DNA of 42,549 bases from Bacteroidota bacterium (GTDB lineage: Bacteria > Bacteroidota > Ignavibacteria > UBA10030). Location: NCBI GenBank assembly GCA_015661185.1, contig JACVXU010000027.1:1-42549 (forward strand). The letters are read 5' to 3'. The translations under genes and the position numbers were made by a program. This document shows, in pieces, positions 36,680 through 40,229 of this stretch (positions are counted from its first letter, which is position 1; each line of letters opens with the position of its first letter). The notes beneath the pieces were generated by a model. That model searched no databases, was not told where the DNA came from, and saw nothing but the letters and a program-made list of their open reading frames with translations.

Positions 36680-37969
36680 TCAGCTTTCAAATCGAATCGT
36701 TACTGCGCGGGCGTGCGCCTCAAGTCTTTCGACTCCGGCCAGTGTCGTCAATGCCGGTGCGAGCCTCTTCAATCCGTCGCGGGTAATGCTCTGGAACGTG
36801 ATCGATCTTTGGAAACTTTCCAGCGACACGCCACTGAACCAGCGCGCTGTCCCTCCCGTCGGCAGCGTATGGTTGGTCCCCGAAGCGTAATCGCCGGCCG
36901 TGACCGGGGCAAACGATCCAAGAAAGACCGAGCCGGCATTCTGAATCAGCGGGAGGATGCTTTCGGGCTGACGGATGTTGATCAGGAGATGCTCCGGCGC
37001 ATAGATGTTGGAAAACGCTGCTGCTTCCTGCATGGAGCCAACAATCATCGCGAAGCTGCTTTCGAGTGATTTTGATGCAATCGTATTGCGAGGCAGAGAC
37101 TGCAGTTGTTTGGAGAGCTGTTCCAGCGCCGCTGTTGCCAGAGACTCGCTCGTGGTAACAAGGACAACCTGAGATGTGGAGTCATGCTCTGCCTGCGAGA
37201 GAAGATCGGCCGCAACAATTCGTGGGTCAGCACTCTCGTCTGCTATGATGAGCAACTCGGAAGGTCCCGCGAGCAAGTCGATTGAAGCACCGTCAGGATC
37301 TGATGAAACAAAGCGTTTCGCTTCGGTGACGTATTGATTTCCGGGTCCAAAAATCTTATCGACCTTTGGAACCGACCCTGTTCCATATGCCATCGCGGCA
37401 ATTGCCTGAGCGCCTCCTACCTTGTACATCTCCCGGATTCCGATATGCGCAGCGGCTGCAAGGACGACGGGATCAGGAACTCCATTTGATTTCGGTGGTG
37501 AACAGAGGACGATACGCGGACAACCCGCAAGCAGGGCCGGAATGCCGAGCATGAGCACCGTTGACGGCAGCGGAGCGGATCCTGCCGGAACGTACAGTCC
37601 AACAATCTCGATCGCCCGTTGTTCGCGCCAGCAAAGGACGCCAGGCTCAGTTTCGATCCTGCCTTCCTTCTTCGACTGGGCAGAGTGAAACGTCCGGATG
37701 TTGCGGGAAGCGTGGTCGATCGCTGCAAGAACTTTGGCAGGAACAGCTGCACGAGCAGTTTCAATCTCTCCGGGACTCACATTCACATCAGATACTTTGG
37801 CTGAATCGAATCGCTTGCTGTATTCCCTAAGCGCAACATCTCCGCGTCGCTTTACATCAAGGCAGATGCATTCGACAGCGTTCTTCGCGGACCTGTCCTC
37901 GGTCCATGGACGCACGCACAAGGCGCGTTGTTGTTCAGGTGTCAGCTGTCTGGATTGATAGATCTTCAT
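36680..37969 (-). CDS. hisD: Histidinol dehydrogenase
   Basis: GLYVPAGSAPLPSTVLMLGIPALLAGC...VGGAQAIAAMAYGTGSVPKVDKIFGPGNQYVTEAKR...DLLAGPSELLIIADESADP. Confidence 0.98.
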   Translation of the reverse strand: MKIYQSRQLTPEQQRALCVRPWTEDRSAKNAVECICLDVKRRGDVALREYSKRFDSAKVSDVNVSPGEIETARAAVPAKVLAAIDHASRNIRTFHSAQSKKEGRIETEPGVLCWREQRAIEIVGLYVPAGSAPLPSTVLMLGIPALLAGCPRIVLCSPPKSNGVPDPVVLAAAAHIGIREMYKVGGAQAIAAMAYGTGSVPKVDKIFGPGNQYVTEAKRFVSSDPDGASIDLLAGPSELLIIADESADPRIVAADLLSQAEHDSTSQVVLVTTSESLATAALEQLSKQLQSLPRNTIASKSLESSFAMIVGSMQEAAAFSNIYAPEHLLINIRQPESILPLIQNAGSVFLGSFAPVTAGDYASGTNHTLPTGGTARWFSGVSLESFQRSITFQSITRDGLKRLAPALTTLAGVERLEAHARAVTIRFES

Positions 37970-38841
37970 GTGATGATTGTCTCAATTGGTACGACGATAA
38001 TGTCGCTTGCGCCCGCCTTCTTGAGCCTTTCCATCACATCCCAGAACACGTCCTCAGCGACGACGGAGTGCAACGCCACCATCCCTTCTTCGGCCAGGGG
38101 GACAACCGTGGGGCTTTTCAAGCTTGGGATTATGCGTTTAAGACGCGGGACCGCCGTCAAGGGAGCATTCATCATCATATAGCGCTTACCGCGGGCCTGC
38201 AAACTTCCGGAGATGCGAATCGCGAGCCGCTCGATAAGCAATTTCTTGGCAGATTTTTTCAGAGTCTGCCGATTAGCGATGAGCACGGCTTCAGACGAGA
38301 GCACGACGTGCAGAGGGCGCAGCCCGTTCACGCGCGAGGTGGTGCCTGTCGATACAATATCACAGATTGCGTCTGCAACATCGAGCGTCGGGGCAAGCTC
38401 GACGGATCCGCTCAACTCGATCACCTCTGCCTTCAGCCGGCGGGCCCGAAGGAATTGCTTCAGGGTTGATGGATATGTTGTGGCGATTCGCTTTCGGTTG
38501 AGCTGGCTCACGGACCTGATCGTTGACCGCTGCGGGACGCTGATGGTGAGGCGGCAGTGGCCGTAGCCGAGCTTTGTGACTATTTCGACCTGTGCCCGTT
38601 TCTCGCGAACGATATTTTCGCCCACAATGCCGAGATCTGCAACGGCGTCCTGAACGTACTCGGGGATGTCGTCGTCGCGCAGGGCAAGGACATCGAGGTC
38701 AAAATTCCGGCACGGAGAGTACAGGCTCTGTTTCTGAAATTCGAATTCCAATCCGCACGCACGGAGCAGGGAAATGGAATCCTCCGTGAGGCGTCCGCTT
38801 TTCTGTATTGCGATCTTGAGTCGACCGTTGTTGGCAATCAT
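37966..38841 (-). CDS. hisG: ATP phosphoribosyltransferase (long form)
   Basis: LKIAIQKSGRLTEDSISLLRACGLEF...DIPEYVQDAVADLGIVGENIV...DAICDIVSTGTTSRVNGL; C-terminal regulatory-like region. Confidence 0.97.
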   Translation of the reverse strand: MIANNGRLKIAIQKSGRLTEDSISLLRACGLEFEFQKQSLYSPCRNFDLDVLALRDDDIPEYVQDAVADLGIVGENIVREKRAQVEIVTKLGYGHCRLTISVPQRSTIRSVSQLNRKRIATTYPSTLKQFLRARRLKAEVIELSGSVELAPTLDVADAICDIVSTGTTSRVNGLRPLHVVLSSEAVLIANRQTLKKSAKKLLIERLAIRISGSLQARGKRYMMMNAPLTAVPRLKRIIPSLKSPTVVPLAEEGMVALHSVVAEDVFWDVMERLKKAGASDIIVVPIETIIT

Positions 38842-38842
38842 G

Positions 38843-38858
38843 CTTTACCTTGATAAAG
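38843..38858. promoter_or_regulatory. Candidate operator palindrome 2, one base upstream of hisG ATG
   Basis: CTTTAC-CTTG-ATAAAG; 13 of 16 positions match operator 1. Confidence 0.6.
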
Positions 38859-38876
38859 TGATCTGGGCAAAAAAAA

Positions 38877-39176
38877 TTACTGTGAGTCTTTCAGCACAAC
38901 GAGACGCCGGAGCATCATGATGTATCCGCCCTTTCCCTGCTTGAGCCACTTATGGACACGTGCGATGGTTCGTGAGCTCATGCCGGTTTCCTGTTCGATG
39001 GTGGTGTAGGGGGCTCCCTGCCAGAGCATGCGCGCGACCTTCCAGCGCTCGGCACATTCGCGGATCTCCGTCTCGGTCAAAAGATCGCGGAAAAACTTGC
39101 GGCATTCCTCCAGGTTTTCAAGCCGGGTGATGGCCGCATAGAGATCGTCGATATCTCGTTGCTTTAAGTGTTTCAT
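38877..39176 (-). CDS. TrpR-superfamily regulator, YerC/YecD type
   Basis: MKHLKQRDIDDLYAAITRLENLEECRKFFRDLLTETEIRECAERWKVARMLWQGAPYTTIEQETGMSSRTIARVHKWLKQGKGGYIMMLRRL. Confidence 0.92.
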   Translation of the reverse strand: MKHLKQRDIDDLYAAITRLENLEECRKFFRDLLTETEIRECAERWKVARMLWQGAPYTTIEQETGMSSRTIARVHKWLKQGKGGYIMMLRRLVVLKDSQ

Positions 39177-39177
39177 G

Positions 39178-39193
39178 CTTTACTTAGGTAAAG
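39178..39193. promoter_or_regulatory. Candidate operator palindrome 1, one base upstream of the yerC-like ATG
   Basis: CTTTAC-TTAG-GTAAAG, perfect 6-bp arms. Confidence 0.65.
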
Positions 39194-39220
39194 TATACTC
39201 AATCGTCGCGAAAGATGCAA
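39192..39220 (-). promoter_or_regulatory. Putative sigma70-like promoter for the yerC-his operon
   Basis: Minus strand TTGCAT (39220-39215), 17 nt, TATACT (39197-39192); the -10 box touches operator 1. Confidence 0.45.
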
Positions 39221-39281
39221 GAGGTCGTAGGAAGAAATTTCACTTGTCAATCAGGGCCATTTTCTCTACCTTTTTCAGCAC

Positions 39282-40229
39282 ATGATAACATTTCACGATA
39301 TCGAGGACGCTTACAGGATTGTGAAGCCGGTGGTTCACAAAACGCCGCTGCTTGGGTCCCGCACGCTCGATGAGCGGGTAGGAAACGAGGTCCTCTTTAA
39401 AGCAGAAAACCTGCAAAGGATCGGCGCCTTCAAGATCCGGGGCGCGTATTACAAGATTGCGTCGCTGTCGGAGGAAGAACGGAAACGGGGAATTGTCGCA
39501 CACTCGTCCGGCAACCATGCCCAGGGTGTCGCCCTTGCAGCAAAGCTGCTCGGCACGAAAGCCGTAGTCGTCATGCCGAAAAGTTCTCCGCCGAATAAAG
39601 TTGCCGGCACACAGGGATACGGCGCGGAAGTCGTGTTCTGCGAAGATTCATCCGACGACCGGGAACGGGTAGCAAAAGAACTGCAAGAGCGTCATGGATA
39701 TGTGCCTGTTCCTCCATTCGATGACGACAAGATCATTGCCGGGCAGGGAACCGCGACCGTGGAGATTGCACAGGATATTCGTGAACTCGACTATCTCTTT
39801 GTTCCTGTCGGCGGCGGCGGCCTCATTGCGGGAAATGCGGTGGCGGCAAAACACCTGTTCCCAAACATCAAAGTCATCGGGGTCGAGACGGAGCCGGCGA
39901 ACGATTGCCAGCAGTCGTTCCGGAAGAAGGAGATCGTGCGAATCAACCCGCCGAACACCATCGCTGATGGCATGCGCACGCAAGCTGTGGGGAAGAGAAA
40001 CTTCGAGATTATTCTGCAATATGTGGACGATATGATCACGGTGACTGATGACCAGGTGATTGAGATGATGCGGTTTTTTCTGGAGCGGATGAAGATTGTG
40101 GTCGAGCCAACGGGGGCCGTGGCGCCTGCGGCCATCTATCACAATGTGCTCGGCCTCTCAGGCAAGAAACTCTGTGCCATCATCAGCGGGGGAAACGTAG
40201 ACCCGGCGCTCCTGAAAAAGATTCTGTAA
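39282..40229 (+). CDS. Threonine/serine ammonia-lyase (PLP-dependent)
   Basis: HKTPLLGSRTLDERVGNEVLFKAENLQRIGAFKIRGAYYKI...HSSGNHAQGVALAAKLLG...VPVGGGGLIAGNAVAAK. Confidence 0.95.
   Translation: MITFHDIEDAYRIVKPVVHKTPLLGSRTLDERVGNEVLFKAENLQRIGAFKIRGAYYKIASLSEEERKRGIVAHSSGNHAQGVALAAKLLGTKAVVVMPKSSPPNKVAGTQGYGAEVVFCEDSSDDRERVAKELQERHGYVPVPPFDDDKIIAGQGTATVEIAQDIRELDYLFVPVGGGGLIAGNAVAAKHLFPNIKVIGVETEPANDCQQSFRKKEIVRINPPNTIADGMRTQAVGKRNFEIILQYVDDMITVTDDQVIEMMRFFLERMKIVVEPTGAVAPAAIYHNVLGLSGKKLCAIISGGNVDPALLKKIL

Follow-up and report, generated by a model that had tools for sequence, protein, structure and literature searches.

The yerC product of Bacillus subtilis, HisR, is a published histidine repressor (PMC9413887, Ashniev et al. 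2022). According to the available part of that paper, HisR operators in Firmicutes, Actinobacteria and Synergistetes follow the consensus cacTTTAnnnnnnTAAAgtg, and the HisR homologue of Ruminococcus gnavus binds its own site with histidine, but not without it. A second kind of precedent comes from roadblocks. LacI, PurR, CcpA and CodY can roadblock bacterial polymerase, and release at the LacI roadblock in E. coli is described, in the available parts of the same sources, as mostly Mfd-dependent (PMC4132739, PMC10310618). RNA polymerase I terminators have a T-rich element about 15 bp before a roadblock protein (Reb1/Nsi1 or TTF1), and according to what is available of PMC12366685, the roadblock and T-rich element gave no RNA release without a hairpin.

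The window (the whole stretch of DNA that was analyzed, 42,549 nucleotides) contains a his operon that shares with the HisR (YerC) regulons of PMC9413887, as far as that text is available, a TrpR-type repressor of the YerC family, the cacTTTAnnnnnnTAAAgtg operator and the his operon as target, and with those of Proteobacteria and Elusimicrobium the position of hisR at the head of the operon and of a site upstream of hisR. It differs from the published regulons in that the available main text does not list Ignavibacteria among its phyla, and in that the same text makes no mention of an operator between hisR and hisG or of a T-run 9-10 nt ahead of it. Like the operators of LacI, PurR, CcpA and CodY roadblocks, this second operator lies downstream of a (predicted) promoter, in the path of elongating polymerase. 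Unlike the bacterial roadblocks described in the available parts of PMC4132739 and PMC10310618, it has a conserved T-run beside it, and the roadblock itself is here a predicted one. A T-rich stretch just upstream of a DNA-bound protein, here the predicted HisR, also recalls Pol I terminators, by analogy only: these have a spacing of about 15 bp and need a hairpin in the available account (PMC12366685), whereas here the spacing is 9-10 nt, no hairpin is found and the protein would be a metabolite-sensing repressor.

The hisR-his operon and its two palindromes

The features that matter for the argument are these:

39191-39219, minus strand: predicted promoter of the hisR-his operon, TTGCAT (39214-39219), 17-nt spacer, TATACT (39191-39196); from sequence
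39178-39193, minus strand: site 1, predicted HisR operator CTTTACCTAAGTAAAG (coding strand), overlapping the -10 hexamer and likely start point; from sequence and recurrence
38877-39176, minus strand: hisR (yerC), 99 aa, TrpR-family histidine repressor by family; TIGR02531 and PF01371
38869-38876, minus strand: T8 run immediately downstream of the hisR stop, ending 10 nt ahead of site 2; from sequence
38843-38858, minus strand: site 2, predicted HisR operator CTTTATCAAGGTAAAG (coding strand), 1 nt before the hisG ATG; from sequence and recurrence
37966-38841, minus strand: hisG, ATP phosphoribosyltransferase, long form, 291 aa; TIGR00070 (192 bits) and TIGR03455
31827-37969, minus strand: remaining operon, hisD, hisC, hisB, hisH, hisA, hisF and hisIE; Pfam and reading of open reading frames

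The operon thus has the order hisR-hisGDCBHAF-IE, with hisR first. In profile searches, the 99-aa open reading frame scores 88.3 bits against TIGR02531 (yecD_yerC, cut-off 42.2), which places it in the YerC/YecD TrpR-related family, and 78.4 bits against PF01371; the family profile matches PDB entries 3kor, 3frw and 3g1c. Together with the TIGR00070 score of hisG, this bears out an earlier note on this DNA, which had recognized a TrpR/YerC-like regulator and hisG from the letters. Pfam names hisD, hisC, hisB and hisH, with hisC as a class I/II aminotransferase (the hisC name comes from context), hisH as a class-I glutamine amidotransferase, and hisB with a HAD phosphatase domain at its N-terminus, whereas hisA, hisF and hisIE are named from the reading frames and not from a profile search. 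On the other strand, a PLP-dependent dehydratase gene (39282-40229, plus strand) adjoins hisR divergently; its top NCBIfam match, threo-3-hydroxyaspartate ammonia-lyase, is under the cut-off, and such a gene also lies beside hisR in many relatives.

The two palindromes, CTTTACTTAGGTAAAG at 39178-39193 and CTTTACCTTGATAAAG at 38843-38858, differ at 3 of 16 positions. A single base (39177 and 38842, respectively) parts each of them from a minus-strand ATG, at 39176 for hisR and 38841 for hisG, and the coding strand accordingly reads CTTTACCTAAGTAAAG-C-ATG and CTTTATCAAGGTAAAG-C-ATG. Direct reading therefore confirms what the earlier note had observed: the positions of the pair, its 13/16 match and the one-base distance to the start codons are exact. 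A pattern search finds CTTTAYNNNNRTAAAG in two places in the 4.33-Mb genome, site 1 and site 2, both at the yerC-his locus and with no crowd of random matches; the same pattern read backwards, which served as control, has one match. The TTTAN6TAAA core is present in both sites, and the genome has no other CTTTAYN4RTAAAG sites. When up to 3 mismatches are allowed, CTTTACYWWGRTAAAG has 12 strand-wise matches in the window, compared to 1.25 expected.

Among 61 genomes, that of the window and those of near relatives, we located hisR in 28, most of which belong to the window's own family. Of these 28 loci, 24 have a perfect CTTTAN6TAAAG in the 60 nt ahead of hisR, 23 have one between hisR and hisG, and 20, the window included, have both; as the loci are related by descent, these counts are not independent trials. 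The spacing recurs as well, with site 1 exactly 1 nt from the hisR ATG in 21/24 loci and site 2 exactly 1 nt from the hisG ATG in 17 of the 22 loci with a recognized hisG. HisG was also searched in 30 genomes, chosen mostly because hisR had not been found there, and 14 gave a match. One of these, at a contig end (L151), retains operator and T-run; the other 13 are order relatives for which no hisR came up, and their hisG genes lack an operator within 70 nt. A separate observation concerns genome G008 (L012 / L095), where a hisG-like start comes after hisR, T-run and site 2, but no HisG match is found in the genome and site 1 is degenerate; the locus may have decayed, or the assembly may have a gap there.

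The palindrome motif equals the published HisR operator cacTTTAnnnnnnTAAAgtg (PMC9413887). Because the genome has only two such sites, because they recur in relatives and because of this identity, it is a sound reading that the palindromes are operators of a histidine-sensing TrpR-family repressor, HisR, a system known in kind. The proposal of the earlier note that the regulator represses its own gene and has a second operator at hisG is, as a prediction from these data, well supported. We infer histidine sensing and repression in this organism; histidine-dependent binding is known from one homologue elsewhere. The second operator between hisR and hisG, with its T-run, is a variant of this known system for which our searches of open-access papers gave no description.

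Predicted promoter at site 1 and T-run before site 2

The two sites differ in the signals around them, neither of which was in the earlier note. Site 1 appears to cover a sigma70-type promoter, with its -10 hexamer and likely start point. The last two bases of TATACT lie within the palindrome, so that operator and promoter are fused, and in most relatives TTGACA or TTGCAT is followed after about 17 nt by a TATACT-like hexamer at the same place. At site 2, the hexamer at the -10 place is mostly NNCACT in the relatives, and there is no -35 hexamer conserved among them. A consensus scan lists no minus-strand promoter; as it also misses the promoter at site 1, where TTGCAT matches only 3/6 positions, its silence at site 2 is weak evidence. 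Site 2 sits inside the predicted transcribed region, without conserved promoter elements.

What site 2 has is a run of T. We examined 31 loci with a perfect site 2 (the 23 of 28 mentioned above and eight from the named collection) for a stretch of at least six consecutive T in the 30 nt upstream of the site. Such a run occurs in 26 of them, where 0.78 would be expected given how often such windows occur in these loci, and in all 26 the run (T7-T9) ends 9 or 10 nt before the CTTTA of site 2. Its end keeps its distance to the operator (sd 0.49 nt) far better than to the hisG ATG (sd 2.7) or to the hisR stop codon (sd 5.5). When each lineage contributes a single row (n=20), T has a share of 0.80-1.00 at positions -17 to -11, and its share in the rest of the 40 nt upstream does not exceed 0.45. 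Comparable runs are found at site 1 in only 4/33 loci. None of the four loci lacking site 2 (L015, L024, L096, L122) has even a run of five T in the hisR-hisG spacer, and three loci with one mismatch in site 2 (L017, L018, L028) retain T6-T8, T6 being that of L018, ending 10-11 nt ahead. Five loci have a perfect site 2 without a T-run in the usual place (L025, L027, L099, L102, L142), of which L099 and L102 have T6 runs farther upstream. By eye, L102 also shows a CCCCG...CGGGG inverted repeat followed by T5 ahead of site 2 (L102:1900-1960).

Two conventional explanations of the run were considered and rejected. An intrinsic terminator would have a GC-rich hairpin before the run, and the 45 nt upstream fold no better than shuffled sequences (mean z -0.07, 26 loci); a scan of window positions 38700-39350 listed no terminator-like site. 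A U-rich translational enhancer would be tied to the start codon, but the distance to the ATG varies from 26 to 39 nt, while that to the operator is 9-10.

A predicted roadblock at site 2 and its alternatives

We propose, with confidence and doubt in roughly equal measure, that HisR with histidine keeps polymerase from initiating at site 1 and is a roadblock to elongation at site 2, the T-run leaving a weak hybrid. On site 1, histidine-bound HisR would cover the -10 hexamer and start of the only recognizable promoter, which would reduce initiation for hisR and the his genes alike. Because there is no recognizable promoter at site 2, HisR bound there, between hisR and hisG, would act as a roadblock on elongating polymerase. 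With the T-run ending 9-10 nt ahead, the blocked polymerase would halt on a mostly rU:dA hybrid and for that reason may backtrack or fall off more readily. The outcome would be a repressor-dependent terminator without a hairpin, and any transcript that escapes the block at site 1 would code for HisR and not for the enzymes. We infer both the roadblock and the role of the T-run in release, and are more tentative about the full claim, a histidine-gated terminator in which the T-run releases the transcript and hisR is expressed without the enzyme genes, for which we see a chance somewhat below even. No measured stall distance for a bacterial repressor was found in the available literature on such roadblocks, so that the fit of 9-10 nt, which would bring the U-run into the hybrid, or close to it, when HisR stops the polymerase, is a geometric argument. 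As Pol I needs a hairpin and release at LacI is mostly Mfd-dependent, the T-run alone may not suffice. The five loci with a perfect site 2 and no run in the usual place also count against the proposal.

Of the other explanations, all of them possible, the likeliest is that site 2 is a secondary operator or a simple roadblock, and that the T-run is an A-tract that bends the DNA for binding and has no part in release. Such a binding aid would draw on the same operator evidence from genomic sites and relatives, would also be expected to keep a fixed distance from the operator, and accords with the loci that retain the operator without the run. The run is one-sided and missing at most site 1 copies, which speaks against it, although promoter elements fill the space there; on balance we consider this reading rather unlikely. 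Next comes an internal hisG promoter under the control of site 2, with the T-run as promoter element or not. Operators usually lie at promoters, and in one relative (L014) site 2 is preceded by TATACT, as site 1 is; given the missing -35/-10 pair, the prevailing NNCACT and, for what it is worth, the empty scan, such a promoter seems improbable.

Both palindromes adjoin an ATG, and the earlier note, which placed them in the ribosome-binding region, left DNA-level and RNA-level readings open. The placement holds by position, though the signals at the two sites differ as described, and the DNA-level reading is the most likely for both. An RNA-level role, whether of the palindromes as mRNA hairpins that cover the start codons or of the U-run in RNA processing or translation, appears very improbable to us. 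Folded as RNA, the 16-nt palindromes give weak hairpins (mean -1.2 kcal/mol at site 2 and -2.3 at site 1), which C-A and C-C mismatches of the inner pairs interrupt in some loci, so that the hairpin reading is disfavoured; the T-run tracks the operator and not the ATG; and the HisR family binds DNA. Set against this are traits of site 2, where T..G inner pairs, with wobble allowed, exceed C..A pairs by 14 to 2, and where the spacer contains a weak Shine-Dalgarno-like AAGG with a mean anti-SD duplex energy of -2.4 kcal/mol on the coding strand versus -1.3 on the reverse. Least credible of all is a DNA loop that HisR closes between the two sites. Their distance of 320-375 bp within one operon would suit it, but TrpR-family proteins are known as dimers and the helical phasing is weak (R 0.28-0.35 for periods of 10-11 bp, n=27). 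The interpretation given by the earlier note is thus supported in part.

Spread and meaning of the arrangement

Operator and T-run are found together beyond the close relatives, in three patescibacterial loci (L112, L118, L147), in a Blastocatellia-labelled MAG (L117) and in a Bacteroidetes MAG (L111). In L118 and L147, the gene after the site encodes a SLOG cluster4 protein (Pfam PF18306) and not HisG, and by eye the downstream product of L112 starts like those two. Patescibacterial HisR-like genes adjoin SLOG cluster4 genes in L118 and L147 and, by eye, in L112, L127 and L137; HisR-type operators lie before hisR and, in L112, L118 and L147, also before the SLOG gene. Patescibacterial HisR has possibly been retargeted to SLOG genes. 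Paired HisR-type palindromes, 18 or 23 bp apart, lie upstream of patescibacterial hisR in seven further loci (L119, L124, L125, L130, L131, L134, L140).

In a tree of 61 HisR rows, T-run loci occur on either side of the midpoint root. This tree is based on few columns, its root is arbitrary and many of its forks are weak, and transfer is possible. The idea of a widely spread module was discarded, since T6-N-operator patterns have scattered matches at about the rate of the reversed pattern in 399 genomes of the window's phylum, 293 of one patescibacterial class and 300 of Bacillota, and in the latter two sets do not clearly exceed that control; among the matches listed in these searches, the hisR loci of G000, G008, G013 and G482 were recognized. 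In the helix-turn-helix of HisR, SSTTVARV replaces SSRTIARV in L028, L029 and L030, and several operators of these loci, and of L117, have the 3' arm CTAAAG instead of RTAAAG. A change of specificity is possible; the loci are few and from one clade, and SSTTVARV is based on L028-L030 and not on L117.

Our findings place the HisR operator system in Ignavibacteria. They also describe an arrangement, conserved in nature, by which transcription may be ended jointly by a simple repressor and a bare T-run. If the release step is true, the arrangement would be a compact bacterial counterpart of termination by roadblock and T-rich element, controlled by an amino acid, and release of polymerase at a repressor would become directly testable.
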